A program made the translations under genes and the position numbers. A DNA stretch of 64,000 nucleotides from Marivivens sp. LCG002 (GTDB lineage: Bacteria > Pseudomonadota > Alphaproteobacteria > Rhodobacterales > Rhodobacteraceae): assembly GCF_030264275.1 (NCBI RefSeq), contig NZ_CP127165.1, forward strand, positions 918,001 through 982,000, written 5' to 3'. The number at the start of each line of letters is the position of its first letter. Position 1 is the stretch's first letter. Positions 661 to 28,677 of the stretch are shown here, piece by piece. The notes under the pieces are model-generated. The model was not told the DNA's origin. It did not search any database and worked only from the letters and a program-made list of their open reading frames with translations.

Positions 661-693
661 GGGTCCAAAGAGGCATAGGGGATAGGGGACGCG

Positions 694-1953: not shown

Positions 1954-2019
1954 GTTTCCAGCGGTATCGGCTTGCAAGTCTTGCCGCGCATCATAGTTTG
2001 AACGGGGGAGGAGATTTCA

Positions 2020-6912: not shown

Positions 6913-6956
6913 GCGCCGACAGTAATACCGACACGCAACGCAACACATAAGACAAA

Positions 6957-8428: not shown

Positions 8429-8451
8429 GAGGGGCGGCGCGTTCGCCCCTC
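8429..8451. terminator. Possible convergent hairpin
   Basis: Arms GAGGGGCG (8429-8436) and CGCCCCTC (8444-8451) flank a 7-base loop between the convergent DUF1097 and kinase genes and touch the kinase stop codon. There is no clear T-run, so termination is uncertain. Confidence 0.3.
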
Positions 8452-11897: not shown

Positions 11898-12572
11898 TTA
11901 CTGGCTGTCTTGCAAGACCGAAGCGAAACTGGCCTCCTTTGCAATCAGCACGGCTTGGGTGCGGCTTTGAACGCCCAGTTTACGCATGATCGCGGTGACA
12001 TGGGCTTTGACCGTCGTTTCAGCAATCGACAGATCATAAGCGATTTGCTTGTTCAACTTGCCTTCGCAGATGAGTTGCAGAATTTTTGCCTGTTGCCGTG
12101 TCAGCCGCGACATACGCGAGATTGCTTCGTCCTGATCGGTGGCGGGGCTGCTGGCGTTATTGTCGAGCGGCACGCCCTCGGGAACATAGCGCTCGCCGCG
12201 GGCGATGGCCTCAAAAGCGGCACGGAAGACTTCGCGCTGGCTGTGCTTGGGCACAAAACCCGATGCGCCTGCGCGGATCGTCGATGCGATCATGCGGTGA
12301 TCGGCCATCGAGCTGACGACGACGATCGGAATGGGAGCCACGACCTTCTGCAGACGGATCAACCCGTCAAGCCCGTTCACATCGGGCAAATTCAGGTCAA
12401 GCACCACCACCTCGGGTCTCAGCCCCGCGCCGATCTTTTCGAGCGCCGCTTCGAGATGTTCGGCGGTTTCGACTTTTCGGATGCCCGCAACCGTTTGAAG
12501 CGTCATCGACAGCGCGTCGAGAAAGAGCGGATGATCGTCAACAATCAGTGCGGTATTGAAAGTCATGGGCAT
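11898..12572 (-). CDS. LuxR/NarL-family response regulator
   Basis: About 224 residues. The N-terminal receiver has an acidic pocket (LIVDDHPLF), phospho-acceptor Asp in VVVLDLNLPDVNG and Lys in GFVPKHS. The C-terminal LuxR helix-turn-helix is LTRQQAKILQLICEGKLNKQIA, then AETTVKAHVTAIMRKLG. The start is taken at 12572; 12566 (the next Met) or 12617 are possible. It lies between the FIST-kinase operon and the PQQ dehydrogenase, all on the minus strand. It is the likely DNA-binding output of the kinase and the best candidate to bind the GGTCGYA sites. Confidence 0.88.
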   Translation of the reverse strand: MPMTFNTALIVDDHPLFLDALSMTLQTVAGIRKVETAEHLEAALEKIGAGLRPEVVVLDLNLPDVNGLDGLIRLQKVVAPIPIVVVSSMADHRMIASTIRAGASGFVPKHSQREVFRAAFEAIARGERYVPEGVPLDNNASSPATDQDEAISRMSRLTRQQAKILQLICEGKLNKQIAYDLSIAETTVKAHVTAIMRKLGVQSRTQAVLIAKEASFASVLQDSQ

Positions 12573-12665
12573 GGTGTCTGCTTCGCAAGTGACATGGTAT
12601 GGATCTATCCTACCCATAAGTCTCTATTCGGCAAACGACACTATGGTCTTAGCCCCGACATAAGA

Positions 12666-12709: not shown

Positions 12710-14458
12710 TTACTTGGCCAGTTTGAATGTCCAGATCATACCGCCCTGATTGAGGTAGTTGACGCGGTTTGCGACTTCGCCGCCCCAGAGCGGAACAGCG
12801 CCGCCCCAGCCCGATGCGACCGAGACATACTGTTCGCCGTCCATTTCCCAAGTGATCGGCTGGCCGACGATGCCCGAGCCGGTCTGGAAGGACCAAAGCT
12901 TTTCACCGGTTTCGTCGTCGAGCGCGATGAATTCACCTTCGGGGGTACCGGTAAAGACAAGGCCGCCTGCAGTGGTCATAACGCCTGCCCAGAGCGGGGC
13001 GTCGTTCTTGTATTCCCACTTGATTTCACCCGAATCCGGGTCAATGGCCTTGAGCGAACCGATATAGTCCTCGAAGAGCGGCTTGATGGTAAAGCCGGAA
13101 CCGAGATAGGCCGCGCCCTCGCGATAGGTCACAGGCTCGTTCCAGATGTCCATGCCCCATTCGTTCGACGGCACATAGAAGTTGCCTGTGCGCTGCGAAT
13201 AGGCCATCGGCATCCAGTTCTTGCCGCCAAGGAACGACGGGATCGCAAAGACCATCTCGCCCTTATCGCCGTCGGTCGCGGCCGAAGGATCGCCCGGACG
13301 GTTGTCCTCGTTATAGATCGGGCGGCCGTTTTCATCGATGCCCGAAGCCCAAGAGATGTCTTTGACGAAAGGCACAGCCGAGACGAACTTGCCGTCGGCG
13401 CGGTTCAGAACATAGAAGAACCCGTTGCGGTCGGCGGTTGCAAAGCGGTCGTTGCCCTCGCGGTCGGTATAGGCCACCACTTCGTTCACACCGTCAAAGT
13501 CCCAGCCTTCGCGCGGGGTGGTCTGGAAGTGCCACTTGATTTCGCCTGTTGCGGGGTCGATGCCCAGACGCGAAGCGGCGTAGAGGTTGTCACCCACGTT
13601 TCCTTCAGTCGGCGCGCCTGCGTTGCGCAAGTGCGAGTTCCACGGGGCAGGGTTGCCCGTGCCGAAGACCAGCGTGTCGGTGTCGGCGTCATAAGAGCCG
13701 CCAAGCCACGTCGCGCCGCCGCCTGTTTTCCACATATCGCCCGGCCAGGTCGCATTGAGCGTGCCCGTCATGGTCGATTCTTCGCCGTTGAGCGTGCCCA
13801 TATGGCCTTCGATCACGGGGCGGGTCCAAACGAGATCGCCCGTTTCCGCGTTGCGGGCCTGAACCTCGCCGACGATGCCGAATTCACCGCCCGAGTTACC
13901 CGTGACGATCAGACCGTTCACGATCAGGGGCGCAGCAGTATAGGAATAACCAGCACGATAATCGGCGATCTTCTTGTTCCAGACCACGTCGCCCGTCTTG
14001 AGGTTGAGGGCCACCAGACGCGCATCGAGCGTGCCGAAGTAGATGTTGTCGCCATAGATCGCGGCACCGCGGTTGATCACGTCACAGCAGGGCAGGATGC
14101 CTTCGGGCAGACGCGCGTCGTATTGCCAGATCTCTTTGCCTGTTTTGACGTCGATCGCATAAAGACGCGAGTAGGAGCCCGTCACATACATGATGCCGTC
14201 ATAGACAAGCGGCTGGGTTTCCTGACCGCGCTGTTTTTCGCCGCCCATGGAAAAGGCCCAAGCGGGAACAAGGCTGCCGACGGTGTCTTTGTTGATAGCC
14301 TCAAGCGGAGAGAAGCGCTGCAGATTGCGCCCCATACCGTTGGTGACGACCTGCGAGGTAATTGTCTGGTCGTTTGCGACGTCGGCTTCTGTCACCGCAG
14401 CTTGTGCGGTAGACAGAGCCATAAGGCTGACGGTTGCAGCCAGAATGAAGCGCTTCAT
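12710..14458 (-). CDS. PQQ-dependent alcohol dehydrogenase, lanthanide-type (PedH/ExaA-like)
   Basis: A 582-residue periplasmic quinoprotein with signal peptide [20 protein letters not shown] and an eight-bladed propeller rich in W-docking repeats ([19 protein letters not shown], then [20 protein letters not shown]). The vicinal Cys124-Cys125 disulfide ([11 protein letters not shown]) holds PQQ. The active-site segment is GWDFDGVNE: Asp320 is the catalytic Asp, and Asp322 at +2 is the extra ligand seen in lanthanide-dependent XoxF, ExaF and PedH. Calcium enzymes have Ser or Ala there. The C-terminal [13 protein letters not shown] is ExaA-like. The open frame continues upstream to 15865, but the signal peptide and GGGAGGATT before 14458 set the start. 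Confidence 0.93.
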
Positions 14459-14561
14459 TGGAATCCTCCCGTTGATTTTCGAAGTTCGGAGCTGCGCAAA
14501 AGGCCGAACCGGAACTGGGAAGAGTATGGATAACGACTTCGTGAGATGGGAATTGAACCTT

Positions 14562-14624
14562 GGTCGTAGCTGTGGTCGTAGATGCAGGCGCAGCATTTCT
14601 ACGACCCACAACCAAAAGGTCGTA
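14562..14624. promoter_or_regulatory. Cluster of four GGTCGTA motifs between divergent genes
   Basis: GGTCGTA occurs on the plus strand at 14562-14568, 14574-14580 and 14618-14624, and on the minus strand at 14600-14606. The last two form TACGACC-N11-GGTCGTA. The first two are direct repeats 12 bp apart. The first is preceded by TTGAACC (14553-14559). The cluster lies in the 219-bp gap between the PQQ dehydrogenase and the ABC binding-protein gene and probably controls both. Multiple exact heptamers in 63 bp are a strong sign of an operator. Confidence 0.65.
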
Positions 14625-14677
14625 TTTCGCGGCGCGGCCCGTTTTGCCAACCTGACGGGGAACTTTGGGAGGACTGA

Positions 14678-15649
14678 ATGACTTATTTTCGGACGCTGCT
14701 TGCAGGGGCCGCAACGCTTGCGCTTACCGCGGGGATCGCTCTTGCCGAGACCCCTGTCATCAAAGCGGCTGTCTTGCAGTCGGGGACGGTGAACTGGGAA
14801 CTCGACACGATCCTGAACCAAGACTTCGACGGCGCTCACGGCTTCGAACTCGAGGTCATGGGCGTGGCAGGTGGAGATGCGGCCCAGATCGCGCTTCTGG
14901 CGGGCGAAGTCGATACGATCGTATCGGATTGGCTCTGGGTGGCACGCCAGCGCGCGAACGGCGAAGACTTTGTTTTTATCCCGTATTCCAAAGCCGTAGG
15001 CGGCGTTCTTGTCGCAGGCGACAGCACGGCCACATCGCTTGCGGACCTTCGGGGCGGCAAAATCGGTATCGCGGGCGGTCCGCTCGACAAGAGCTGGCTT
15101 ATCCTGCGGGCCTATGCGCAGAACCAGTCGGGGTTCGACCTCAAGGAAGAGACCGAGCAGGTCTTTGGTGCGCCGCCGCTCATCGCTGAAACCGCGCTTG
15201 CGGGCGATGTCGACGGGGCGATCAACTTCTGGCATTTCGCTGCAAAAATGAAGGCAGCAGGTATGCGCGAGCTGGTCTCGGTGGACGAGGCTGCCCGCGC
15301 GCTGGGCCTTGATCCCGAAACGCCGCTTCTGGGTTATGTCGTCCGCGGCTCCATGGTTGCAGAGCACCCCGAGCTTGTCGCCGCACTCGCTGACGCGTCG
15401 CGGGATGCCAAGGCGCTTCTTGCCTCCGATCCCGCCGCATGGGAGCCACTGCGCGAACGTATGCGGGCAGGAAATGACGCCGAGTTCGAAGAGCTCAAAG
15501 CAGGCTTTATCGCAGGTATTCCCGCCCAAGGCGCGGTAGATGTCGCGGCGGCTGCCAAAATGATGGCGGTGATGATAGACTTGGGCGGTGACGAACTCGT
15601 CGGGGATATGGACGCATTGCCTGACGGAGTGTTTTGGACAGGACAATAA
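14678..15649 (+). CDS. ABC transporter substrate-binding protein (NMT1/SsuA-like)
   Basis: A 323-residue periplasmic binding protein with signal peptide [23 protein letters not shown] and an NMT1/SsuA-type fold ([21 protein letters not shown], then [19 protein letters not shown]). The stop and the next start overlap as TAATG, so it is coupled to the ATPase. The missing permease is probably the gene at 7029-7799. It is divergent from the PQQ dehydrogenase across the GGTCGTA cluster. The ligand is unknown; family members carry nitrate, sulfonates, taurine or thiamine precursors. Confidence 0.87.
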
Positions 15650-16311
15650 TGCAAGCAATCGCCCAAGGGACCGCGCCGCTTTCGGCGGAAGAGCAAAGCC
15701 CACTTCTCTCCCTCTCGCTCGAGTCCTTTGGCTTTGGCAGCGCTCCGATCCTCGGGGCGCTGTCTTTTGATATTGCGGCAGGTGAAAGCGTTGCGCTGCG
15801 CGGGGAGAGCGGGATCGGCAAAACCACGTTGCTGCGGCTGGTTGCGGGTCTCGAGGTCGCGCCAAAGAGCCGACTGATCGTCAATGGCCGTATGGGGATG
15901 GTGTTTCAGGAGCCGCATCTGTTGCGTTGGCGCTCGGTGCTAAGGAACATCACGCTGACGACGGGCGTCGATGACAGGCGCGCTCTGACGCTTCTGGACC
16001 AAGTCGGTCTGATCGGGAAAGAGGCGCTTTTCCCCGATCAGCTTTCACTTGGGCAACAGCGCAGGCTTGCCATCGCGCGTGCCTTTGCGGTGGAACCGGA
16101 TCTTTTGCTCTTGGATGAACCTTTCGTCTCGCTCGATGCGGAGCTTGCCGATCAGATGATGGGGCTTCTTGAAAGTCTGCGCGCGATCTATCGGCCTGCG
16201 CTGCTGTTGGTGACCCATGATGATGCCGAAGCCGAGCGGCTGACCGAACGGGCCATCACGCTTGGCGGGCATCCCGCGTCTATCATCTCAGACGTCAAAA
16301 GAGCGGGCTGA
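15649..16311 (+). CDS. ABC transporter ATP-binding protein
   Basis: A 220-residue nucleotide-binding subunit. It has Walker [11 protein letters not shown]-loop VFQEPHLL, signature [14 protein letters not shown], Walker B LLLLDEPF and switch His in LLVTHDD. The start is the ATG inside the TAATG overlap with the binding-protein gene; an upstream GTG/ATG-like start at 15634 would lie inside that gene. It partners with the preceding binding protein and probably the distant permease at 7029. Its 3' end overlaps the convergent Sel1 gene by 17 bp. Confidence 0.88.
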
Positions 16312-16843
16312 ATTTCCAGTTGTCCGCATCGGGCGTGATCTCGTTGAGATCATAGTCCGCCCCGCGAAGACGCTCGGCAATGGCGACACCTTCATCGGCG
16401 GCGCGGTCGATAAAGCGTCGGCCTGCTTCGCTATCTTCTGCCACGCCCCAGCCGCGCATCAGATCGATCCCGTGATTGAACATTCCGACAGGATCGCCGA
16501 GTTCGGCAGCGCGTTTGTTCCATTCGGCTGCGCCTTGGGGGTCGATCCCCGTCCCGTTGCCAAGACCGTTATCATCAAGATAGCCCATCCATGCCATCGC
16601 GGCCGTGTTGCCCGCATTGGCACAGGTTTCAAAGGTGAGGCGGGCATCGCTGTGATCGCCCTTTTTGGTCATGAAATACCCCGCGGCGCAGGAGGTCATC
16701 GACACCTCTCCCCGCCTGATATTTTCGATCACGCGGTTGAGGGTCAGCTCTTCTCGGTTCAGATCCCCGAATTGGCTTGGGTCCTCTTCTTCGGCCGCCA
16801 AAGGCGTGGCCGCAAGAGCCAAGGCAAAAATGAGATATCGCAT
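16295..16843 (-). CDS. Sel1-repeat (TPR-like) secreted protein
   Basis: A 182-residue protein with signal peptide MRYLIFALALAATPLAAE and two or more Sel1-like repeats (AAMAWMGYLDDNGLGNGTGID, then GMFNHGIDLMRGWGVAEDSEA). GGAGG lies 8 bases before the ATG. Sel1 repeats mediate protein contacts in the periplasm or envelope. It has its own upstream GGTCGTA (16904-16910) and sits between the two ABC systems of the quinoprotein island, so it may belong to the regulon. The function is unknown. Confidence 0.75.
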   Translation of the reverse strand: MRYLIFALALAATPLAAEEEDPSQFGDLNREELTLNRVIENIRRGEVSMTSCAAGYFMTKKGDHSDARLTFETCANAGNTAAMAWMGYLDDNGLGNGTGIDPQGAAEWNKRAAELGDPVGMFNHGIDLMRGWGVAEDSEAGRRFIDRAADEGVAIAERLRGADYDLNEITPDADNWKFSPLF

Positions 16844-16903
16844 GTCCAGTCCTCCAACCCCTCTCATCCTAGCAAAATTGGGTGAATTTGTCAGGCTTGC
16901 TAT

Positions 16904-16916: not shown

Positions 16917-17708
16917 CTATTTGCCGTCTCTCGTGATGCCGCGTGCGGGGTCATAGCCATAGAGTGCAAGCGCGAGAAACACCCCAAGGCTCAGGCTCGT
17001 CCAGCCCAAAGCGGCAAGATTGACCTCGAGATAAAGCGCAAAGCGGATCAGCTCGACCGCATGGGTAAAGGGGTTGATCGTGCAAATCCAGAACAGCAGC
17101 TCGCCTGCCTCGGCCATCTTCCAGAGCGGGTAGAGCGCAGAGGACAAAAAGAACATCGGAAAGATCACAAAGTTCATAACCCCCGCGAAATTCTCGAGCT
17201 GCTTGACCTGTGACGAGATCGCAAGTCCCAAAGCGCCGAGCATCAATCCGCCAAGGCAAAGTGCGGGAAAGACCGCGAGATACCCCCAAGGGTCGAGGCG
17301 GATCTCGAAGAGCCAGGCAATCGCGAGGAAGCTATAGGCTTGAAGCGCCGAGATGAGCGTGCTCGCAACCAATTTGCAAAAGAGCAACCATCCCCGTGGG
17401 AGCGGCGCGGTCAAAAGGACCTTCATCGATCCCATCTCGCGGTCGTAAACAAGACTAAGAGAGGTCTGCATCCCATTGAAAAGCAATATCATTCCGCATA
17501 ATCCCGGAACGATATAAGTCTCGTAGGTGATATAGGTCTGATAGGGTGGGATGATCGAGAGACCGAGCGCGGCGCGAAAGCCTGCGGCAAAGACGAGAAG
17601 CCAGACCAAGGGACGCACCAAGGCGGCGAGGAACCTTTCGCGCTGGCCGACATAGCGGAGTGTCTCGCGGGTGATGATGGCGTGCAGGGCGATCCCAAAG
17701 GCTCTCAT
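16917..17708 (-). CDS. ABC-2 type permease, PQQ-alcohol-dehydrogenase-associated (PedC-like)
   Basis: A 263-residue ABC-2 membrane subunit with about six helices. Markers are VRPLVWLLVFAAGFRAALG, LVYDREMGSMKVLLTAPLPRG and the C-terminal ICTINPFTHAVELIRFALY. The ATG overlaps the ATPase stop by 4 bp. This permease type is a recurrent companion of PQQ alcohol dehydrogenases (the PedC-type family of pseudomonad ped loci). The exported substrate is unknown. A longer frame to 17885 runs into the ATPase gene and is rejected. Confidence 0.87.
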   Translation of the reverse strand: MRAFGIALHAIITRETLRYVGQRERFLAALVRPLVWLLVFAAGFRAALGLSIIPPYQTYITYETYIVPGLCGMILLFNGMQTSLSLVYDREMGSMKVLLTAPLPRGWLLFCKLVASTLISALQAYSFLAIAWLFEIRLDPWGYLAVFPALCLGGLMLGALGLAISSQVKQLENFAGVMNFVIFPMFFLSSALYPLWKMAEAGELLFWICTINPFTHAVELIRFALYLEVNLAALGWTSLSLGVFLALALYGYDPARGITRDGK

Positions 17709-18424
17709 AGCGGCTCGCCCACTTTGCGCATGAAAACCTCGGACAGGGGGAGGCCGCCGCAGATTTGCGCCGCCGTTCCGCGCTCGAGGACTTCGCCCTT
17801 GTGCAGAAGGATCAGATCGTCCGTCGGGCGCACTTCGTCCGTCAGATGGGTCGCCCAAAGCACGGTAAGCCCGTCTTCGGTGCAAAGACGGTGCACATGT
17901 TCGGTGATGGCGATCCGCGTCTGGCTGTCGAGCCCGACGGTCGGCTCGTCAAGAAGAAGCACTTCGGGTGCATGAAGCAGAGCGCGGGCGATTTCCGTGC
18001 GGCGTTTGTGCCCACCGTTAAGGGCGCGGACCTTTTCGCCCGCGCGTTCCAACATGCCAAGACGGTCAAGAGCGGCATCTATCTTGATGTCTGCGGCTTT
18101 GCCTGCAAAGCCATGCAAAGCGGCAAAATACCGAAGGTTCTGCCGCACGCTCAGATCAAGGTCGAGCGTCGTTTGCTGGAACACGATGCCCATCTTGGCG
18201 AGTGCGCGCAAAGGTGTTTCACGAAGGGGCGTATCGGCAATCTCGATCGTGCCACCGTTCGGCACGAGCAGCCCTGTGAGAATGGCGTAGAGCGTCGATT
18301 TTCCTGCACCATTCGGCCCGAGAAGCGCGCAAAACCTGCCGCGTTCGATCTCGAATCCCACATCCTTCAGCGCCTGTTTGGCCCCATAGCTGTGCGACAG
18401 GTTCTGAACGCGAAGACCGCTCAC
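17705..18424 (-). CDS. ABC transporter ATP-binding protein, PQQ-associated
   Basis: A 239-residue ATPase. It has Walker A LLGPNGAGKST, Q-loop IVFQQTTLDLDLSVRQNL, a degenerate signature ALNGGHKRRTEIARALL, Walker B VLLLDEPTVGLD and switch His in WATHLTDE. GTG is the start, giving a GTGA overlap with the upstream gene's stop. It belongs with the ABC-2 permease as an efflux-type transporter typical of quinoprotein ethanol dehydrogenase loci. The signature LNGGHKRR in place of LSGGQ is characteristic of this subgroup. Confidence 0.88.
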   Translation of the reverse strand: MSGLRVQNLSHSYGAKQALKDVGFEIERGRFCALLGPNGAGKSTLYAILTGLLVPNGGTIEIADTPLRETPLRALAKMGIVFQQTTLDLDLSVRQNLRYFAALHGFAGKAADIKIDAALDRLGMLERAGEKVRALNGGHKRRTEIARALLHAPEVLLLDEPTVGLDSQTRIAITEHVHRLCTEDGLTVLWATHLTDEVRPTDDLILLHKGEVLERGTAAQICGGLPLSEVFMRKVGEPL

Positions 18425-18867
18425 TCTATTGTAATCTCCAACCGTTGCAGTGCGCCTGTGCTGTTCGGGACGTGGAGATTATAGGACCCCGGCTTGATGG
18501 CGAGAAAACCGATTTCCATCGTTCCGGGATCGTCGAATTCCACACTGTCGAGCCCCAGCGGGCGGATTTCGAGACCTTCGATCACGATCTCGTCGATCCA
18601 GATCGCGCGAAAGAATTCGGGACCCACCAATCCGATTTCGGCAGAGCCGTCCGAGGTGATCTCGATCTCGTAATAAACGCCGGATTTAAGGACCAGCGGC
18701 GCGTCGGCAAGGGGCTCTCCCGCCGAGAGAAGGATCGGGGGCAAATCCTCTTTGTTCTTGGCCGAGAGAATCCCCGCCAAACCGAATGGGGATGGCTGAT
18801 CCTCTGCGTTCGCTGCGAAGGGAGCGCTAGCGATAAGCGCGGCAAAAGCGATTGTTCTGAATGACAT
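18421..18867 (-). CDS. Small secreted protein of unknown function in the PQQ operon
   Basis: A 148-residue protein with signal peptide MSFRTIAFAALIASAPFAANA. The mature part is beta-rich (GVYYEIEITSDGSAEIGLVG, then FLAIKPGSYNLHVPNSTG) and has no Cys or evident metal ligands. I do not recognise the family. It is translationally coupled to the ATPase (GTGA) and lies 11 bp after the beta-propeller gene, so it is an integral member of the operon and probably works in the periplasm with the propeller or binding protein. Confidence 0.75.
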   Translation of the reverse strand: MSFRTIAFAALIASAPFAANAEDQPSPFGLAGILSAKNKEDLPPILLSAGEPLADAPLVLKSGVYYEIEITSDGSAEIGLVGPEFFRAIWIDEIVIEGLEIRPLGLDSVEFDDPGTMEIGFLAIKPGSYNLHVPNSTGALQRLEITIE

Positions 18868-18878
18868 TAGGAAACCCT

Positions 18879-19844
18879 CTACGGCCGAACAGCCGCGCCC
18901 CAAGGGAAACGGCCAACTTTGATTGTTTTGACGGGGGTGCGGCTTGCCACGTCGATCACCGTGACATCGCCCGAAACGCCGTTCGTCGTGAAAAGCATCG
19001 TGTGATCCGGCGAAAACGCCATATGCCACACCCGACGCCCGACAAGGATATAGTCCTCGACTTCGTAGGTTTCGGTGTTCACCGCAGCCACATGGTTGGA
19101 CGGGCCAAGCGCGACGAATGCGGTCTTGCCGTCCTCCGAGAACTCGAATCCTACGGGCTGGATGTTGTCCTGATGCACGCCTTTGATCTCGAAGCTGATT
19201 TTGGCAAGCGGGGCCTGATCCGCGACGGCGAAAACCGTCACCGTTCCGCCGATTTCGGAGCTGACCCAAAGCTCGCTCCCCTCTTTGGCGAACTCGGCGT
19301 GGCGCGGACGCGCATCCACCAGAGTGTTGGCAAAAAGCTGATTCGTCTCGGTGTCGATCCAATGGGCCATATTCGTGGTTTCCGAGGTGGTGATCGCAAT
19401 CTTGCCGTCCGGTGACACCGCCATGCCTTCGGGTTCGATTCCGACGTCGATCTGGGCGATCACCTTGCGCTCGACGGTGTCCACCACCGTGGTGATCGCA
19501 TCATCTTCGTTGGCAATGTAAAGATGCCTATTGTCGGGGTGGAGCACGAATTGTTCGGGGTCCTCGCCCGATGGAAGATCGTGGAGAATCTCGCCTGTTT
19601 CGGGATCGATCACCTGAACCGTGTCGCTGTCCGAGGCACAGACATAAACCACCGAATAATCCTTGCTAAAGGTAATCCCGCGCGGCCGCTCGCCCGTTTC
19701 GATGGTGCGCACGACTTCGAGCGTGTCAATGTCGATCACGCTGATCGTGTCGTCATGTTCGTTCGTGACCCAAATCTCGCTCGCCGTTGCGGGCAGAGCG
19801 GCCAGAAGTGCAAGACAGGAGAGCGTCGATAAAAGGCGTTTCAT
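18879..19844 (-). CDS. PQQ-dependent catabolism-associated YVTN beta-propeller protein
   Basis: A 321-residue periplasmic protein with signal peptide MKRLLSTLSCLALLAALPATA followed by about seven YVTN-type blades (EIWVTNEHDDTISVIDIDT, YSVVYVCASDSDTVQVIDPE, LFTTNGVSGDVTVIDVA). This is the beta-propeller family that recurs beside PQQ alcohol dehydrogenases. It has no catalytic PQQ signature and probably acts in protein interaction or assembly. It lies in one minus-strand operon with the binding protein (3-bp gap) and the ABC-2 exporter. Confidence 0.87.
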   Translation of the reverse strand: MKRLLSTLSCLALLAALPATASEIWVTNEHDDTISVIDIDTLEVVRTIETGERPRGITFSKDYSVVYVCASDSDTVQVIDPETGEILHDLPSGEDPEQFVLHPDNRHLYIANEDDAITTVVDTVERKVIAQIDVGIEPEGMAVSPDGKIAITTSETTNMAHWIDTETNQLFANTLVDARPRHAEFAKEGSELWVSSEIGGTVTVFAVADQAPLAKISFEIKGVHQDNIQPVGFEFSEDGKTAFVALGPSNHVAAVNTETYEVEDYILVGRRVWHMAFSPDHTMLFTTNGVSGDVTVIDVASRTPVKTIKVGRFPWGAAVRP

Positions 19845-19847
19845 GAA

Positions 19848-21023
19848 TTACTCCGAAAAAGCGGTGCAGCGGCTCTGGGGCGCGTCGAGCCCGAGTGTGT
19901 CGAGATCCGATGTGGGATGAAGAAACCCCTCGAGCGGGGCGACCGCGACCACGGCGCCCGGATGAACGACGGGAATGGGCTGGCGCAGTTGTCCGTTCCA
20001 GCTTCGGAACGAAAGCGGCCGTCCTTTGAATGCGGCAAGCTCGAATTCGTCCGAGAGCATATAAGCGCGAAGCACGCTTGGATCATCGCTCGCGGTGCGC
20101 GTCACGGCCTCGCCCAAGGCACGAAGGGCGGCCCAGGCGGCATAATCCTTGGAGCGCATATTCCGCCCTGCATGGTCTTCGAAGCGGTTCTGGAGCTGGA
20201 CCGCACCCCATTGCTCCATCACATGGCTCCACCCCAAAGGCCGGAGCCCTTCGGAGCCCGCCAAAAGGACGGGGTCCCAGGTGTTATAGGGGAGGTAGCG
20301 GGCAAAATCGCCGATCTCGTCGGCGGCCAAAAGGACATCGTGATCGGGAAGCTCTTGGGTGAAAAGAGGCACCTCGGCCGTGGCAGCGCGGCGCATGTTC
20401 GCATCGAAGCGCCATTCCTTTTCCCCTTTGATTTTAAGACCGAATTTCCGCGCCGATCCGCGCAGCGCCTCGGCAAAGGCCATATCGGAGGCATGAGGCC
20501 CCGTAACCATGGCAAGATCGGGCCACCGCCGCTGCGCGAGAAACTGCATCAAGGCATCACTGCGCATGGTCAGACTTGCGGCGGTGTGCAGCACATTGGC
20601 GCGGCAAGCCTCGTCCCGAAGATCGGGTTCTTCGGCGGCTACGTTGAACAACAGAGCGTCTTCAAGCTCGGCAAGGTCGGCCAAAGCCAACAGACCCTCG
20701 CGCGGGGCGTCGATGATCAGAAACCGTGTTTGCGCCGCACTCTCGCGTCCCGCCGCAAGAAGATCGCCGCCCACGGGCACGATCCGCTCTTGCAGGCTCC
20801 AAGTCTGACCGAGGAATTTGCCCGTCGTTGCGTTGTCCTGAAGCCCGATCTCGGCTCCGCGCCATCCCTCGTCCTCGGGAATCGCATCGAGATTTGAGAG
20901 AACGGGGGGGCGCTCCACCTCCTGTTTGAGATAGGTGATCGTGATCGCCGTCTCGGATGCAGCAGGACCGCCCGCGCAAACGCCGACCAGACCGAGCCAA
21001 AAAACAAGCGTTTTGAGTGGCAT
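19848..21023 (-). CDS. PQQ-associated periplasmic binding protein (type I fold)
   Basis: A 391-residue protein with a hydrophobic leader (MPLKTLVFWLGLVGVCAGG) and a type I periplasmic-binding fold resembling branched-chain amino-acid binders (GAEIGLQDNATTGKFLGQTW, then LLAADEIGDFARYLPYNTW). It matches the ABC substrate-binding family that accompanies PQQ-dependent alcohol dehydrogenases. It is first in the minus-strand operon and divergent from cytochrome c550 across a region with TGCGACC and GGTCGCA arms. The ligand is unknown. Confidence 0.85.
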   Translation of the reverse strand: MPLKTLVFWLGLVGVCAGGPAASETAITITYLKQEVERPPVLSNLDAIPEDEGWRGAEIGLQDNATTGKFLGQTWSLQERIVPVGGDLLAAGRESAAQTRFLIIDAPREGLLALADLAELEDALLFNVAAEEPDLRDEACRANVLHTAASLTMRSDALMQFLAQRRWPDLAMVTGPHASDMAFAEALRGSARKFGLKIKGEKEWRFDANMRRAATAEVPLFTQELPDHDVLLAADEIGDFARYLPYNTWDPVLLAGSEGLRPLGWSHVMEQWGAVQLQNRFEDHAGRNMRSKDYAAWAALRALGEAVTRTASDDPSVLRAYMLSDEFELAAFKGRPLSFRSWNGQLRQPIPVVHPGAVVAVAPLEGFLHPTSDLDTLGLDAPQSRCTAFSE

Positions 21024-21072: not shown

Positions 21073-21113
21073 TGCGACCATCGTCTAGGCTGCTGGCTTG
21101 AACCAAGGTCGCA
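21073..21113. promoter_or_regulatory. TGCGACC / GGTCGCA arms in the divergent promoter
   Basis: TGCGACC (21073-21079) and GGTCGCA (21107-21113) are inverted, 27 bases apart. The second is the end of TTGAACCAAGGTCGC (21098-21112), the consensus of the repeats at 7816-7845. The pair lies between the divergent binding-protein and cytochrome c genes and is a probable shared operator. Confidence 0.55.
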
Positions 21114-21192
21114 TAGATTTGATCAGCAAAGCGCGGGTAGTCAAAAAGCCAACCTTCGAACGCATGCTGCATTAGATTGAGGAGATCGCCCC

Positions 21193-21885
21193 ATGCTCAA
21201 AGCGCGCCACGCCATTCTTATTTCCGCAGGCCTTATCGCCGTTGCGGGTTTCGTCAACGCTCATGGGGATGTCGCCCCACAGCCTGTCAACACCGACGCC
21301 TTGCCCGACATCGGTGAGGAATGGCTGATCGAGAATCCCTATCGCGCAGAGGCCGTGGGCGAGGACGTCTGGCTCAAAGCGGTCGAAATCGGATCGTCGG
21401 GCTTCAACCAGAATTGCGCGCGCTGCCATGGCCTCGGGGCCATCTCGGGCGGGCTTGCTCCCGATCTGCGGTTCCTTGAAGCGGAAGAATACGGGGATGA
21501 ATGGTTCATGGAGCGTTTCCGCCATGGCTATACCCAGAACGGCACCACCAAGATGCCCGCCTTCGAGGAAGTGCTCGGTCAAAAAGCAGGCTGGGCGATC
21601 CGCACCTATGTCGAAACCCGTCCCGATGATCAGCAAGTGACTGAAAACGCCGGTGAACTTGGCGCCCTTCGGGACAAGCTGGCCGAGCTTGCGACGGGAG
21701 GCGAGGCGGATACAGAGGCCCTGCGCGCCGAACTCAACGCGATTGCCGATAATATCGAAACACTTTCAGGTGCGCCGATTGCGGTTTCGATCGCTTGGGA
21801 GGCGGCCCGCGCTCTCGACGGAAGCGCGACAGGCTACAAACACGCCTCTGAAATCCTGACGGTCGGACTTTCGGCGGCGCACTGA
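21193..21885 (+). CDS. Cytochrome c-550, PedF-like
   Basis: A 230-residue monoheme cytochrome with a signal peptide (MLKARHAILISAGLIAVAGFVNA). The heme site is CARCH (Cys75, Cys78, His79) and the likely axial Met is Met121 in TTKMPAF. It is the expected electron acceptor of the quinoprotein dehydrogenase. About 95 residues follow the heme domain, rich in E/A/L and helical (ELGALRDKLAELATGGEAD). That is long for a small c550 and may be an oligomerisation segment. It is coupled to the next gene (TGATG). Confidence 0.87.
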   Translation: MLKARHAILISAGLIAVAGFVNAHGDVAPQPVNTDALPDIGEEWLIENPYRAEAVGEDVWLKAVEIGSSGFNQNCARCHGLGAISGGLAPDLRFLEAEEYGDEWFMERFRHGYTQNGTTKMPAFEEVLGQKAGWAIRTYVETRPDDQQVTENAGELGALRDKLAELATGGEADTEALRAELNAIADNIETLSGAPIAVSIAWEAARALDGSATGYKHASEILTVGLSAAH

Positions 21886-22787
21886 TGATGAAACGCTTGC
21901 CCCTCAGCCTTGTGATGATGACCCTTGCGGCGGGGGGGCTTGCCACGCCGGCATCGGCCAGATGCGAGGATTACGTCCCGCAGGCCAAACCGCAGAACGT
22001 GAGCCGTGATATCGTCGGGCAGGATCTCGACACGATCATCGAGCGCGGCTTCATCGAATTCGCGGTGTTCGAGGACTTTGCGCCCTATTCCTTTGAAGAG
22101 GCGGGGCAACCGAGGGGCGTCGACATCGAAATCGCCAAGCTTATCGCCGAGAGCATCGGCGTCGCGCCCAAGTTCAAATTCGTGCAGGCGGACGAGAATC
22201 TTGAAGCGGATCTACGCAACTGGATCTGGAAAGGCCCCGTCGTCGGGGGCGCGGTCGCGAACGTGATGATGCACGTTCCTTACAACAGCGACTTTGCCTG
22301 CCGCGTGGAGCAAGTGGTCTTTACGGGCCAATACTACAAAGAGGGTATTGCCATCGCCTATGATGCGGCCTTTTATGAAGGTGACAAACCCACACCACCG
22401 TTTTTCCGTTTCGATCCCGTCGCGGTCCAGAACGATACGATTGCCGACTTCTATCTGACGAACCTTCTTGGGGCAGGGGCCTCGGCCAATGTGCGCCGCT
22501 TCCCTGAAATCGGCGAAGCAGTCGCTGCGATCGGAACGGGCGAGGTGCGCGGTGCGATGGGACCGAAGGCGCAGCTCGAGTATTTCGCGGGCGACGGCGT
22601 CGAGGTCCATCAGCCGCCGCTCGTGAACTTCGGTGTCGGCCAGTGGACAGTCGGTGTTGCTGTCCATTTCGCTTATCGTCCACTCGGGTATGCTGTGGAT
22701 GACGCGATATACGCCGCCCTCCAAGATGGGCGAATCGAACAGATTTTTGCCGATTACGGACTCACGTTCACGGCACCCGAGAGATAG
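21885..22787 (+). CDS. Quinoprotein-associated periplasmic binding protein (MoxJ/XoxJ-like)
   Basis: A 300-residue SBP-3-type protein with a signal peptide (MMKRLPLSLVMMTLAAGGLATPASA). The mature part starts with a Cys-containing segment (RCEDYVPQAKPQNVS) and has FAPYSFEEAGQPRGVDIEIAK and GPKAQLEYFAGDG. It belongs to the MoxJ/XoxJ-like group encoded beside quinoprotein dehydrogenases; MoxJ-type proteins are thought to activate or assemble the dehydrogenase rather than transport. The start overlaps the cytochrome stop (TGATG); Met at 21888 is equally possible. Confidence 0.86.
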   Translation: MMKRLPLSLVMMTLAAGGLATPASARCEDYVPQAKPQNVSRDIVGQDLDTIIERGFIEFAVFEDFAPYSFEEAGQPRGVDIEIAKLIAESIGVAPKFKFVQADENLEADLRNWIWKGPVVGGAVANVMMHVPYNSDFACRVEQVVFTGQYYKEGIAIAYDAAFYEGDKPTPPFFRFDPVAVQNDTIADFYLTNLLGAGASANVRRFPEIGEAVAAIGTGEVRGAMGPKAQLEYFAGDGVEVHQPPLVNFGVGQWTVGVAVHFAYRPLGYAVDDAIYAALQDGRIEQIFADYGLTFTAPER

Positions 22788-22799
22788 CTATCGGCCTTT

Positions 22800-22820
22800 G
22801 GTCGTATATGCAGGGTCGCA
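22800..22820 (+). promoter_or_regulatory. GGTCGTA-N7-GGTCGCA operator before coxG
   Basis: GGTCGTA (22800-22806) and GGTCGCA (22814-22820) are direct repeats 14 bp apart, about 40 bp upstream of the coxG start. The 15 bases at 22800-22814 match 14574-14588 (before the ABC binding-protein gene, opposite the PQQ dehydrogenase) at 14 positions. A weak -10-like TAGCCT lies at 22830-22835, which would place the site over the -35 region. This links the cox genes to the quinoprotein regulon. Confidence 0.6.
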
Positions 22821-22859
22821 ACCCCGCACTAGCCTTTTGACGAGAAGATGGAGGAAGCC

Positions 22860-23381
22860 GTGGAACTATCTGATTCCCGTGTCATCAATGCCGCCCCCGA
22901 AGCCGTTTGGTCGGCGCTTTTGGACCCCGAGGTGCTCAAAGCCTGTATTCCGGGATGTCAGGAGATGAACGGCTCTGTCGCCGACGGGTTCGAAGCCGTC
23001 GTCGTCCAGAAGATTGGTCCCGTCAAAGCGACCTTCAAAGGCGCGGTTCAACTGTCCGACATCGTCGAAGGCAAAAGCTGCACCATTTCGGGCGAGGGCA
23101 AGGGCGGTCCTGCGGGATTCGCGAACGGCGGCGCCAAAGTGACCTTGACCCCTGTCGAAGGCGGAACGCAGCTCGACTACACGGTCGAAGCCCGTATCGG
23201 CGGCAAGATCGCCCAACTCGGTAGCCGCATCATCGACGGTGTGGCCCGCAAGCTTGCAGACGAATTTTTTGCGAAATTTCAATCCGTTGTCGAAGGCCCT
23301 GCGCCCGAGGCAGAGGCCGGAGAGGAGCCGGTTCAGGCGGAGGGAGAAAAGAAAGGCTGGATCAAGCGAGTTTTCTCGTAA
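22860..23381 (+). CDS. coxG: CoxG-like SRPBCC domain protein
   Basis: A 173-residue protein starting MELSDSRVINAAPEAVWSAL, followed by DPEVLKACIPGCQEMNG, the classic CoxG N-terminus. GTG at 22860 is preferred because GGAGGA lies 7 bases upstream of it and overlaps the alternative ATG at 22848. The SRPBCC fold runs to about residue 145, then an acidic linker and a basic end (KKGWIKRVFS) that could contact the membrane. CoxG anchors CO dehydrogenase to the membrane in carboxydotrophs; here it leads the S-L-M genes. Confidence 0.9.
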   Translation: MELSDSRVINAAPEAVWSALLDPEVLKACIPGCQEMNGSVADGFEAVVVQKIGPVKATFKGAVQLSDIVEGKSCTISGEGKGGPAGFANGGAKVTLTPVEGGTQLDYTVEARIGGKIAQLGSRIIDGVARKLADEFFAKFQSVVEGPAPEAEAGEEPVQAEGEKKGWIKRVFS

Positions 23382-23411
23382 GATCCCGTTATCCATTAGG
23401 GAGGAGTAACC

Positions 23412-23897
23412 ATGACCAAAATTTCCATGACGGTGAATGGCCGTCAGGTCACGGGCGACGTCGAAGGACGCACGTTGCTTGTTGATTTCCTGCGCGAGAA
23501 CCTGCGTCTCACGGGGACCCACGTCGGCTGTGACACGTCGCAGTGTGGGGCCTGCACCGTTCATGTGAACGGTCTTCAGGTCAAATCCTGCACCATGTTC
23601 GCTGTCGAGGCCGATGGCGCCGAGGTCGGCACCGTCGAAGGCCAGCAGAACGCCGACGGCTCGCTCTCGACGCTTCAGGCAGCGTTTCAGGAGCATCACG
23701 GACTTCAGTGCGGGTTCTGCACGCCTGGCATGATCATGGCGGCGTCTTCGCTGCTCAAGGTCAACCCCAAGCCCACCGAAGCCGAAATCCGTCATCATCT
23801 TGAAGGCAATATCTGCCGCTGCACGGGTTATCACAACATCGTCAAAGCGATCATGGCCGCAAGCGGTCAGGATGTGAGCAAGATTGCCGCCGAATAA
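23412..23897 (+). CDS. coxS: Molybdenum hydroxylase small (2Fe-2S) subunit, CoxS-like
   Basis: A 161-residue [2Fe-2S] subunit. The plant-type cluster ligands are in [16 protein letters not shown] with a later Cys (VKSC). The C-terminal cluster ligands are CGFCTPGM and [10 protein letters not shown]. The length is normal for CoxS/XdhA-type small subunits. GGGAGGAG lies upstream. It sits between coxG and coxL in the order S-L-M, unlike the M-S-L order of true CO dehydrogenase operons. Confidence 0.94.
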
Positions 23898-23962
23898 GGC
23901 GGGCGCACCAAGAGGCCGTGCGGAGGGAGCCGCGCGGAATAGTTTATTCAGGGAGGAATGAG

Positions 23963-26326
23963 ATGCCCAAGGATAGTGGTATTGGCGCCAGCTCTAAACG
24001 GCGCGAGGACGTGCGGTTCCTGACCGGTAAGGGTCAGTATACCGACGACGTGAATGTTTACGGTCAGACCTATGTGCATTTCCTGCGCTCGGATGTGGCG
24101 CATGCACGGATCAACGGGATCGATACCTCGGCCGCAGAAGCGATGCCGGGTGTTGTGCGTATTTTCACGGGCAAGGATTTTGAAGGTATCGGCGGTTTGC
24201 CCTGCGGTTGGCAGGTCACCGACCGTCACGGTCAGCCCATGCAGGAACCGGGACACCCCGTTCTGGCACAGGGCAAGGTCCGCCACGTGGGCGACCCGAT
24301 CGCAGCCGTTGTCGCGGAAACCCGCGAACAGGCCCGCGATGCGGCAGAAGCCATCGGTCTCGATCTCGAAGAGCTTCCGGCTGTCGTGAATATGAAAGAG
24401 GCGCTCAAGGACGGTGCCCCGAAGGTTCACGACGATCTGAGCTCGAACCTCTGCTATGACTGGGGTTTCGTGGAAGACAACAAAGCCGCCGTTGATGAAG
24501 CCATCAAGAATGCGGCCCATGTCACCACGCTCGAACTGGTGAACAACCGTCTGGTTGCCAACCCGATGGAACCGCGTGTGGCCGTGGGCGACTATAACGC
24601 CGCCAACGATGAATCGACGCTCTACACCACCTCGCAGAACCCGCATGTGATCCGTCTTCTGATGGGGGCCTTCGTTCTGGGAATCCCCGAGCACAAGCTC
24701 CGCGTTGTGGCGCCCGATGTCGGCGGCGGTTTCGGCACCAAGATCTTCCACTATGCGGAAGAAGCCTTTGTGACCTTTGCGGCCCGTCAGATCAAGCGTC
24801 CCGTCAAATGGACCTCGACCCGTTCCGAAGCCTTTATGTCGGATGCCCATGGCCGTGACCACGTGACCAAGATCGAGCTCGCGCTCGACAAGGACAACAA
24901 CTTCACCGCTGTTCGCACCGAGACCTATGCAAACATGGGCGCTTATCTGTCCACCTTTGCGCCTTCGGTTCCGACGTGGCTCCACGGCACCCTGATGGCG
25001 GGCAACTACAAGACCCCGCTCATCTATGTGAACGTCAAGGCCGTGTTCACCAACACCGTTCCTGTGGACGCATATCGCGGTGCGGGACGTCCCGAGGCGA
25101 CCTTCCAGCTTGAGCGGGTGATCGACAAAGCCGCGCGCGAGCTTGGCGTTGATCCGATCAAACTGCGTCGTCAGAACTTCATCACCCAGTTCCCCTATGC
25201 CACTCCTGTGGCTGTGGAGTACGATACCGGCGACTATACCGCGACGATGGACAAGCTCGAAGAGATCATGGATCTTTCGGGGTTTGCCGCGCGCCGCAAG
25301 GCCTCCGAAGCCAAGGGCAAATGGCGCGGTCTCGGCGTCAACTGCTACATCGAGGCTTGCGGCATCGCACCGTCGAACCTTGTCGGGCAACTCGGGGCGC
25401 GTGCAGGTCTCTATGACGCTGCGACGGTCCGTGTGAATGCGACGGGCTCCATCTCGGTCATGGTCGGGGCGCACAGCCACGGTCAGGGTCACGAGACGAC
25501 CTTCCCGCAGGTGATCGCCGAGATGATCGGCATCGACGAAAGCCAGATCGACATCGTGCACGGCGACTCGTCCAAGATCCCCTTCGGCATGGGCACCTAT
25601 GGTTCGCGGTCGCTTGCGGTCTGTGGCTCCGCCATGGTTCGCGCAACCGAAAAGGTCATCCGCAAGGCCAAGAAGATCGCCGCTCACCTGCTCGAAGCAT
25701 CGGAAGCCGATATCGAGCTCAAGAACGGCAAATTCTCGGTCGCGGGCACCGATAAGTCGGTCGATTGGGCTGGGGTCACTCTTGCGGCCTATGTGCCGCA
25801 TAACTACCCGCTCGAAGAGATCGAACCCGGTCTCGAAGAAACCGCGTTCTACGATCCGGCCAACTTCACCTATCCGTCGGGCGCCTATGCCTGCGAAGTG
25901 GAAGTCGACCCCGAAACGGGCAAGGTCACGATCGAGAAGTTCGCAGCCGCCGACGACTTTGGTAACGTTGTGAACCCGATGATCGTCGAAGGTCAGGTCC
26001 ACGGCGGTATCGCCCAAGGTATCGGCCAGGCGCTTCTCGAAGCCGCTGTCTACGATGAAAACGGTCAGCTCCAGTCGGCGTCCTATATGGACTATGCGAT
26101 GCCGCGTGCGGATGATCTTCCGTTCTATATCGTCGACCATTCGTCCTGCACGCCCTGCACCCATAACCCCCTTGGGGTCAAAGGCTGTGGTGAAGCAGGG
26201 GCCATCGGCTCGCCGCCCGCCGTTGTGAACGCCGTCATCGACGCGCTCGCATCGGGTGGCAAGAACGTCGGCCATATCGACATGCCCCTGACGCCGCATC
26301 GCGTCTGGAAAGCAATGAACCAGTAA
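23963..26326 (+). CDS. coxL: Molybdenum hydroxylase large subunit, form II CoxL-like
   Basis: A 787-residue Mo-binding subunit with the molybdopterin-binding pattern DVGGGFGTK and the catalytic Glu in [12 protein letters not shown] near the C-terminus. The active-site loop reads AYRGAGR (residues 370-376), the form II signature. Form I, the proven CO dehydrogenase, has AYxCSFR with the Cys that binds Cu. So CO oxidation is not supported; an aldehyde or heterocycle hydroxylase is likelier. The start at 23963 follows GGGAGG; the upstream 15 codons (from 23918) precede the ribosome-binding site and are rejected. Confidence 0.93.
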
Positions 26327-26341
26327 GAGGAGGACGACATC

Positions 26342-27127
26342 ATGTATGCATTCGACGTAACCCGTCCGAAAACCGTGGCCGATGCAGTTGCTGCTCTTGC
26401 TGGCGAAGACGCTCAGGCACTGGGTGGGGGGCAAACCCTCATCCCGACCCTGAAACAGCGTCTGGCCTCTCCTGCAGTGCTGGTGAGCCTTTCGGCCATC
26501 GACGAGATCAAGGGCGTTTGCCAAGACGGCAGTGTCCTGAGCATCGGCGGCGGAACGACCCACGCAACGGTTGCGGCAGAGGCGGGGGCCTATCCCGCGC
26601 TGGCGGCCTTGGCCGCGAACATCGGTGATCCTGCGGTGCGCAGCCGCGGGACCATCGGTGGCTCGCTTGCCAACAACGATCCTTCGGCGTGCTACCCTTC
26701 GGCGGCTCTGGCTTCCAATGCGACCATCGTGACCAACACTCGCGAGATCGCAGCGGATGACTACTTCCAAGGGCTGTTCACCACCGCTCTGAACGAAGGC
26801 GAGATCATCACGGGCGTGAAATTCCCGATCCCGCAGGCCGCGAACTATCAAAAGTTCGTCCAGCCTGCATCGCGCTTCAGCCTTGTCGGGGTGTTTGTGG
26901 CCAAATACGCCGACGGTGTTCGCGTGGCGGTCACGGGCGCATCCGAGAACGGCGTGTTCCGCTGGTCCGAAGCAGAGGCTGCGCTTTCTGCGAACTTCTC
27001 GGCAGCGGCTCTCGAGGGGCTCACCGCTTCGGCGGATGGCTTGATCAACGACCTTCACGGGGACGCGGAATATCGCGCCCATCTGATCAAGGTCATGACC
27101 AAGCGCGCTGTCGCTGCGGCCAAGTAA
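26342..27127 (+). CDS. coxM: Molybdenum hydroxylase medium (FAD) subunit, CoxM-like
   Basis: A 261-residue FAD-binding subunit. The two FAD-binding motifs are [18 protein letters not shown] and [12 protein letters not shown], with [18 protein letters not shown] after them. It delivers electrons from the Fe-S clusters to an acceptor, probably the quinone pool in cox-type enzymes. GAGGAGG precedes the ATG, 15 bp after coxL. It is the last gene of the cox structural operon; a shared terminator follows before infC. Confidence 0.93.
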
Positions 27128-27772: not shown

Positions 27773-27954
27773 TCGGCTGTTAGCAATTTCTTGCGCAAAA
27801 TATAGGCCCTTAGCGCTGCGCGCAACCCGCTATTGAGGCATTGGGCTAAAGTCCTGTTTTCCCCCATGAGTTGTCTCTTTCCCTTTCATGTTGCATCTGT
27901 CATAGGGGCCGCGGAACCCGGATTGGGGGCTCCGTCCAAAAAAGGAAGTGTATC

Positions 27955-28677
27955 ATGAGAGCGATTATCATCATTGCTATCGCTGCGATCGCCGGTTTCT
28001 TCGGCTATCAGTATTTTGCCAATGGTAAGGCACCTGTCGAAGCGGTCGAAACCGTGACCGAAAAGGCAGAAACCGCTGCAGAAGGCGCGACCGAAGCAGC
28101 GACCGAAGCTGCTGCAACCGCGACCGAGGCTGCCACCGAAGCCGCCACCGCCGCAACCGAAGCTGCGACCGCTGCTGCTGAGGCGACCGAAGCTGCTGCC
28201 GAGGCTGCCACCGATGCGGCTGCCGGTGCTGTAGAAGCTGCTGCAGAAGCTGCGACCGACGCGGTAGAAGCTGCTGCCGAGGCTGGCGCTGCTGCCACCG
28301 ATGCCGCTGCCGCTGCGACCGAAGCTGCGACTGATGCGGCGACCGCTGCGACCGAAGCTGCGACCGATGCCGCCACTGAGGCTGCAACCGACGCCGCTGT
28401 AGCTGCCGAAGGCGCCGCTGCTGCTGCCACCGAGGCCGCAACTGCCGCCACCGACGCTGCAACCAACGCCCTCGGTTCGGTTGCTGCTGCTCTTGATCCC
28501 GCTACTCTCCTGAACGTCGAGAACTTCGATGCGGCCGCTGTCGTATCCTACATCGAAGCCTCGTCGCTCGAAGACGGCACCAAGGGCACGCTTGTCACCG
28601 CTGTGAACGCAGCCGGCGACAACCCCGAGCTCATTCAGGGCGTGATCGATCAGATCAAGGCGGCTCTGGGTCTCTGA
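27955..28677 (+). CDS. Alanine-rich membrane-anchored repeat protein
   Basis: A 240-residue protein of unknown function. An N-terminal membrane helix (MRAIIIIAIAAIAGFFGYQYF) is followed by about 130 residues of Ala/Thr/Glu/Asp repeats (units like TEAATEAA and TDAATAA) that predict one long amphipathic helix. The C-terminal 60 residues are normal sequence (DPATLLNVENFDAAAVVSYIE). The start at 27955 follows AAGGAAG; the upstream extension of the frame has no signal character. It probably spans or lines the periplasm. The repeat leaves long spurious frames open on both strands. A strong terminator follows. Confidence 0.75.
   Translation: MRAIIIIAIAAIAGFFGYQYFANGKAPVEAVETVTEKAETAAEGATEAATEAAATATEAATEAATAATEAATAAAEATEAAAEAATDAAAGAVEAAAEAATDAVEAAAEAGAAATDAAAAATEAATDAATAATEAATDAATEAATDAAVAAEGAAAAATEAATAATDAATNALGSVAAALDPATLLNVENFDAAAVVSYIEASSLEDGTKGTLVTAVNAAGDNPELIQGVIDQIKAALGL
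28066..28470 (+). repeat. Degenerate GCN/ACC/GAN codon repeat
   Basis: Nearly every codon encodes Ala, Thr, Glu or Asp, in units such as GCGACCGAAGCTGC repeated with variation. It encodes the helical rod of the protein at 27955-28677 and could expand or contract by slippage or recombination. Confidence 0.7.

Follow-up and report, generated by a model that had tools for sequence, protein, structure and literature searches.

What is a form II molybdenum hydroxylase (Cox) operon doing beside a quinoprotein alcohol dehydrogenase, and what controls it? The question is raised by a 64,000-nucleotide stretch of Marivivens sp. LCG002 (contig NZ_CP127165.1, positions 918,001 to 982,000; hereafter the window), in which coxG-coxS-coxL-coxM shares a neighborhood with a cluster for a pyrroloquinoline quinone (PQQ)-dependent alcohol dehydrogenase (ADH) and with a regulatory module resembling NosP-NahK-ErdR. 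Comparison of promoters across relatives indicates that coxG-S-L-M probably belongs to the regulon of this module, which would also control the ADH cluster. According to excerpts of PMC13203968, form II Cox has no agreed function. Its genes are widespread, and linking them to a sensor, a regulator and an operator would allow one to ask which compound induces the operon through this regulator. An orphan enzyme would thereby gain a regulatory address. The genes at issue are as follows.

22860-23381, + strand: coxG, GTG start (PF06240, 110 bits, above cut-off)
23412-27127, + strand: coxS-coxL-coxM, form II molybdenum hydroxylase with an AYRGAGR loop (assigned from loop and gene order; all family matches below cut-off)
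8450-10669, - strand: NahK/ErcS'-like hybrid histidine kinase (NF041831, 384.7 bits, cut-off 1500; NF041832, 363.7 bits, cut-off 400; both below)
10666-11841, - strand: NosP-like FIST-domain sensor (NF041558, 376.8 bits, below the cut-off of 450; PF08495 and PF10442 above cut-off)
11898-12617, - strand: LuxR-family response regulator, ErdR-like, the proposed operator binder (best NCBIfam match NF041830, ErdR, 155.9 bits, cut-off 390)
12710-14458, - strand: PQQ-dependent ADH, likely of the lanthanide type (WDFDGVNE; TIGR03075, 759.9 bits, above cut-off)

Upstream regions were drawn from 80 named ADH loci and from 80 stretches of other family genomes, the latter consisting of 78 CoxL loci (≥68% identity), one CoxL locus at 56% and one regulator contig. 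The window was included in both the ADH (n = 83) and the coxG (n = 56) sets. Separate unsupervised motif searches of the two sets returned the same imperfect inverted repeat: TACGACCAttGtgCAATacc for ADH and.Tac.cCcttGGTCgaATag for coxG. This repeat, TACGACC-NN-GGTCNAA, is mostly found some 50 bp upstream of coxG. Its strong half is on the left in ADH promoters and on the right in the coxG set, and its near symmetry means that coxG sites, including that of the window, are often aligned by the ADH matrix in the opposite orientation. The coxS upstream regions of operons lacking coxG (n = 43) did not return the operator motif, yielding instead the unrelated CGTGcTTaAcTc; these operons may answer to another regulator. 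One coxG-less operon, in G032, has a site directly before coxS.

The ADH-trained matrix exceeded the 95% level of shuffles that kept dinucleotides in 68% of the 56 coxG upstream regions, compared with 9% of the 43 coxS regions without coxG, 4% of 27 moxR regions (cut to 180 bp) and 0 of 29 infC regions. ADH sites recovered by this matrix were excluded as evidence, being circular. Median scores of coxG upstream regions were 15.8 beside the regulator (n = 12), 7.6 beside the ADH cluster (n = 27) and -3.9 elsewhere (n = 16). We also scored a panel of cluster promoters using the coxG matrix and shuffles that kept only base counts, as was done for the 21-loci test, the cluster gaps and the ACTU sites described below. 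Scores above the shuffles were obtained for 96% of 28 upstream regions of the substrate-binding protein (SBP) gene of an ATP-binding cassette (ABC) transporter, 97% of 34 for PQQ_ABC_bind and all 43 for pedF (window included; 95% level). They were seldom obtained for xoxJ (0% of 49), yvtn (5% of 37), coxM (6% of 81) or pedC (10% of 58), and were intermediate for ErdR (58% of 12) and nosR-like genes (67% of 9). These counts are not independent, as divergent pairs share one gap, and SBP upstream regions can overlap the ADH operator.

The site before cox also follows the regulator from genome to genome. The family sample comprised 120 genomes (G000 included), with identity limits of ≥68% for CoxL, ≥79% for ADH and ≥54% for the regulator; among the matches listed, the regulator occurred in 41 of the 120. 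It was present in 23 of 34 scored genomes with coxG-type operons and in 5 of 41 with operons lacking coxG (p = 8e-7). A matrix was also trained on 21 named coxG loci only and applied to the other genomes plus the window, whose coxG operator scored 21.3. This matrix found a site in 21 of 35 coxG-type operons (window included) versus 3 of 41 without coxG. Counted by genome, 20 of 29 carrying the regulator had a site before cox, compared with 4 of 47 lacking it (p = 5e-8). When independent pairs were drawn on the CoxL tree, 7.8 favored the association and 0.1 opposed it (median p = 0.008). For the site label, supported branches of this tree demand 14 changes or more; the site before cox has therefore repeatedly appeared and disappeared.

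In 12 genomes (L117-L128), picked because prior placements put both genes near each other, no more than a few kb separate the regulator from coxG, and no ADH lies between them. NosP and NahK homologs at ≥49% identity are present in ten of the 12; L122 has neither, and the kinase match in L128 is only 32%. Two of the 12 (G095, G089) carry ADH elsewhere, and the best full-length PQQ-ADH homolog in another four has 37-39% identity. In the remaining six (G009, G038, G023, G029, G110 and G103), no PQQ-ADH homolog was detected at E ≤ 1e-20. At L009 and L135, whose regulators are identical, cox adjoins the regulator and ADH is about 10 kb off. In a tree of 69 regulators, those linked to cox were dispersed among those linked to ADH, with 8 changes, at least 4 of them forced by supported branches. 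The majority sequence of the helix-turn-helix (HTH), from QQAR to QAVL, was identical in the two groups. Shared control is thus well supported by a common operator, a site that tracks the regulator, and a regulator that stands beside cox without ADH. The sequence-only reading had proposed a single regulon, and the comparison strengthens this proposal: the coxG, ADH, ABC and pedF/pedA1 promoters carry the same operator in relatives, with the ErdR-like regulator at 11898-12617 as its likely binder.

Within the window, the operator copies and the adjoining promoter element are as follows.

14549-14568, - strand: conserved ADH operator TACGACCAAGGTTCAATTCC, core 14552-14568 (motif from 83 ADH promoters)
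14574-14588, + strand: 15-base copy forming a second, tandem operator half (GGTCGTA core; retained in G108)
14608-14627, + strand: ACAACCAAAAGGTCGTATTT, an operator copy oriented toward the ABC binding-protein gene (coxG matrix 14.2)
21097-21116, + strand: operator in the divergent PQQ_ABC_bind (pedA1-like)/pedF promoter, CTTGAACCAAGGTCGCATAG (coxG matrix 20.9)
22790-22809, + strand: coxG operator ATCGGCCTTTGGTCGTATAT (coxG matrix 22.3; ADH-trained matrix 18.8, opposite orientation)
22830-22835, + strand: TAGCCT, possible -10 element (recognized by eye in 20 xoxJ-coxG gaps; many relatives have a TAG.CT-like string after the site)

The starting observation had been a match between 15 bases before coxG and 15 bases in the ADH/ABC promoter. 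Direct comparison bears this out: GGTCGTAGATGCAGG (14574-14588) and GGTCGTATATGCAGG (22800-22814) agree at 14 of 15 bases. The start of coxG is best set at GTG 22860, which has GGAGGA in front and aligns with the start codons of relatives, placing the 15-mer 46-60 bp upstream of the gene. A 14/15 match anywhere in the window means little, since 1334 pairs of 15-mers there differ at no more than one base. In the hand-listed cluster gaps (925 bp), 7 such pairs occurred, counting overlapping registers separately, and at least one such pair arose in 7 of 200 trials with shuffled gaps. Allowing up to three mismatches, the pattern was found at 6 places in the window versus 2.1 expected; genome-wide, GGTCGTAKATGCAGG with at most one mismatch gave a single extra place, C2:26089-26103 (L003) in G000. 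The core GGTCGTA is found four times in a 63-bp stretch of the ADH/ABC promoter (14562+, 14574+, 14600- and 14618+), once before coxG, and 8 times in the whole window versus 3.2 expected. At the coxG operator, the right half, GGTCGTA at 22800-22806, is perfect and the left half is weak.

The sequence-only reading was nevertheless off in one detail of the match. The bases at 14574-14588 do match, but what relatives conserve is the neighboring 14552-14568. The congener G108 retains the copy at 14574, but before its coxG (L085) only a core operator is left and the 15-mer is gone. Taken literally, the check set by the sequence-only reading, persistence of the exact 15-mer in relatives, thus already fails in this congener, whereas the underlying operator passes. 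In the 3.16-Mb genome, the exact TACGACCNNNGTNNNAT occurs only at the ADH operator. A genome scan with this string at one mismatch showed no enrichment (21 versus 18 in a reversed control). Besides coxG, the one-mismatch places scoring above 10 with the ADH matrix were L200 (20.2), L212 (14.2) and L199 (11.0). Each lies inside an open reading frame (ORF) of at least 279 amino acids (aa), that in L200 near the end of a 469-aa ORF preceding another gene. ORF overlap is a weak filter, as the ADH operator itself sits in a spurious 728-aa ORF, and the three places are therefore neither claimed nor rejected as further targets.

The geometry suggests how the module might act. The coxG operator ends 50 bp before coxG, with TAGCCT downstream of it; given this spacing, the natural inference is that a dimer bound immediately upstream of the -35 region would activate transcription. 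In response to an alcohol, an aldehyde or a related metabolite, or possibly nitric oxide via NosP, NahK would lead to phosphorylation of the ErdR-like regulator, and the phosphorylated regulator would bind as a dimer at this position and activate transcription. Cox would then oxidize a small aldehyde or similar compound arising under those conditions, whether or not from this ADH.

Such an arrangement resembles the CrbS/R (MxtR/ErdR) system of Pseudomonas, in which, in the portion of PMC5715377 available, a LuxR-family regulator is described with an imperfect inverted repeat immediately preceding the promoter. In the case of acs, the CrbR repeat occupies positions -52 to -36, and activation requires it (PMC5715377). 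The operator described here is likewise an imperfect inverted repeat like the ACTU-type TACTACCAAAGTCTAAT, and five distinct ACTU sites from Table 4 of PMC5715377, some proven and some predicted, score at P ≤ 4e-4 with both matrices. The systems differ in sensor and targets: the Pseudomonas kinase has an SLC5 symporter domain and its targets include acs and actP (PMC5715377, same portion), whereas in the window a NahK-like kinase lies beside a NosP-like gene and the targets would be the ADH cluster and a molybdenum hydroxylase. The link would extend CrbR/ErdR-class operators to the latter enzyme class. In the Pseudomonas ped cluster, as far as an excerpt of PMC12997753 describes it, PQQ-ADH, Ped transporter genes and a NosP/hybrid kinase/LuxR regulator set also occur together, the local regulators including the NosP-like PP_2663, PedS1 (a NahK homolog) and AgmR. 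The text of that paper mentions no molybdenum hydroxylase; in the window, coxGSLM has an operator, and in relatives cox can own a copy of the regulator module. The form II CoxSLM enzymes described in parts of PMC13203968 and PMC6794299 share the AYRGAGR loop and the coxSLM order; what differs is the regulatory context proposed for the window's enzyme. At the level of titles and abstract openings, no published report of such a regulator-form II Cox link was found.

Several results weigh against shared control. Within the window, the coxG operator has a poor left half (3 of 7 by eye) and scores better with the ADH matrix in the opposite orientation. None of the regulator, NahK-like and NosP-like proteins reaches its NCBIfam cut-off; as the 155.9 bits of the regulator fall short of 390 for NF041830, we term it ErdR-like only. 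No site was detectable in 9 of the 29 operons with the regulator, and one was present in 4 of the 47 without. The independent pairs were weaker with the ADH-trained matrix (7.7 for, 1.3 against, median p = 0.07). Among unlinked coxG operons of ADH-less genomes, a site was found in 5 of 7 with a regulator homolog at E ≤ 1e-40 versus 2 of 8 without (p = 0.13), and in 3 of 4 versus 4 of 11 when ≥54% identity was required (p = 0.28). Upstream regions of NahK exceeded the shuffles in 40-63% of cases (63% of 63), and those of coxL in 25% of 51 (ADH matrix), scores that we read as reflecting coding conservation. Finally, in a class-wide sample of 289 genomes, 113 had a CoxL match (E ≤ 1e-270) and 5 had the regulator, based on the best 3 and 9 candidates per genome, respectively. 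With CoxL widespread and the regulator rare outside the family, the control looks like a local acquisition.

Other explanations of the site before coxG fare less well. Coincidence would suit the abundance of 14/15 matches in the window and the loss of the exact 15-mer before the congener's coxG; however, separate searches of both promoters in relatives return the same operator, making chance highly improbable. A second possibility is that coxG-M is simply the tail of a pedF-xoxJ operon and the site a relic or a chance occurrence. The 72-bp gap between xoxJ and coxG on one strand, the site that pedF owns, and the estimated gap of about 21-22 bp in L017 and L025, which leaves scant room for a promoter, would all be consistent with readthrough. 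The site also occurs, however, in 15 of the 28 coxG operons located beside the regulator or elsewhere instead of after xoxJ, and we consider readthrough very unlikely as the sole explanation. It is slightly easier to envisage, although still unlikely, that another LuxR-type regulator of the same class, such as an acetate CrbR-type protein, binds the cox sites, so that the motif is shared and the regulator is not. The motif class is indeed common to CrbR of Pseudomonas, some genomes have weaker homologs (38-49%), and G001 and G081 have a site with such a homolog only. Against this, the site tracks the homolog at ≥54% identity, which neighbors cox in 12 genomes, and the HTH majority sequence is the same.

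A different proposal, made by the sequence-only reading, takes shared control for granted and explains it metabolically: Cox would be there to oxidize the aldehyde produced by the periplasmic ADH. Proximity and the shared operator fit this proposal, as does the finding that the best NCBIfam scores of all three Cox subunits are with glyceraldehyde dehydrogenase, although no family cut-off was reached by CoxS, CoxL or CoxM in that search. The presence of CoxL, however, is independent of ADH. Among the matches listed, CoxL was found in 83 of the 120 family genomes (two partial) and ADH in 23, without association between them: of the 23 genomes with ADH, 17 had CoxL, as did 66 of the 97 lacking ADH. 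Regulator-linked cox, moreover, occurs in genomes without detectable PQQ-ADH. Product channelling is thus possible but not indicated, and we regard metabolic coupling as rather doubtful. A broader proposal can be entertained, although it is somewhat less likely than not: the Rhodobacteraceae form II Cox may be a main output of a portable NosP-NahK-ErdR-like module, as opposed to a CO enzyme or a quinoprotein accessory. The module would have been coupled repeatedly to cox alone, to a lanthanide-type ADH alone or, as here, to both, and Cox would act on the sensed compound or one closely derived from it, a small aldehyde being the likeliest.

Assignment of the enzyme to form II, as first read, is sound. 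An AYRGAGR motif in place of AYXCSFR defines this form (PMC13203968, in excerpt); the loop of the window's CoxL is AYRGAGR, aligning with AYRCSFR of the carbon monoxide (CO) dehydrogenase 1n5w, and the genes at 23412-27127 are in the order coxS-coxL-coxM. Form II enzymes probably do not act on CO, or have an unclear role, according to parts of PMC6794299 and PMC13203968. Two candidate identities fell short. A form I aerobic CO dehydrogenase is incompatible with a loop lacking Cys and with a TIGR02416 score of 634 bits against a cut-off of 991, and the glyceraldehyde dehydrogenase families NF041018-NF041020 were missed at 656 versus 790, 219.5 versus 290 and 195 versus 350 bits.

Neighbors of cox in ADH-less genomes were considered as a clue to substrate. 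Ten proteins belonged to unrelated families or to none; those families were alpha-amylase, MTTB, transglycosylase, IalB, HerA, short-chain dehydrogenase, DUF808 and phosphoglucomutase. Near the regulator-cox clusters of L122, L123 and L124 lie an MTTB-family gene (identified in L123, with the L122 and L124 genes in the same blastp cluster) and a transglycosylase gene. At L125, L130 and L153 (G061, G062 and G001), pedC-pedB-like ABC genes are found near coxG and divergent from it, with a short-chain dehydrogenase in between in L130.

The best PDB match of the ADH is 6zcv (E = 1e-246), with which it shares WDFDGVNE; 1flg has WDFSGNNE. The ADH thus has the PedH-type extra Asp beside the catalytic Asp (WDFD), as in 6zcv and unlike 1flg. 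We take 6zcv to be PedH, and the extra Asp presumably marks the lanthanide type. The earlier hint of a lanthanide enzyme therefore fits as regards the closest structure and the shared motif, the meaning of WDFD being our assumption. The remaining genes of the cluster are as follows (ped gene names at 16917-21023 are inferred).

13-3968, + strand: moxR/coxD-like, coxE-like, XdhC/CoxI-like and mocA-like genes (PF13478 and PF02625 for 2020-2991; homologs precede coxS in many relatives)
14678-16311, + strand: ABC substrate-binding protein (SBP) and ATPase genes (NCBIfam matches below cut-off; PF09084)
16917-21023, - strand: pedC, pedB, a 154-aa protein, beta-propeller and PQQ_ABC_bind (pedA1-like) genes (TIGR03861, TIGR03864, TIGR03866 and TIGR03863 above cut-offs)
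21193-22787, + strand: cytochrome c550 (PedF; TIGR04494, 190.5 bits, above cut-off) and a family-3 binding protein (PF00497), which we take to be XoxJ-like

Except for XdhC, the labels at 13-3968 (moxR/coxD-like, coxE-like, CoxI-like and mocA-like) are presumptive. As had been noted from the sequence, these maturation-like genes and the structural genes at 22860-27127 flank the quinoprotein cluster. A mocA-like gene directly precedes coxS, without coxG, in 31 of the 60 loci shown and, therefore, the window's quinoprotein cluster sits between two often-joined blocks.

Several further genes of the window have homologs in many relatives' quinoprotein clusters. At 4846-6948 is a membrane protein with 4Fe-4S domains (PF12801), presumably NosR-like, adjoined by a gene at 3965-4891 that we take to be ApbE-like. 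Of the small proteins at 16295-16846 and 18421-18885, likewise found in many relatives' clusters, one has a weak Sel1 match below cut-off and the other no family match. Beyond coxM, an ORF at 27871-28677 encodes a long Ala/Thr/Glu-rich repeat protein of the AATEAATDAA type.

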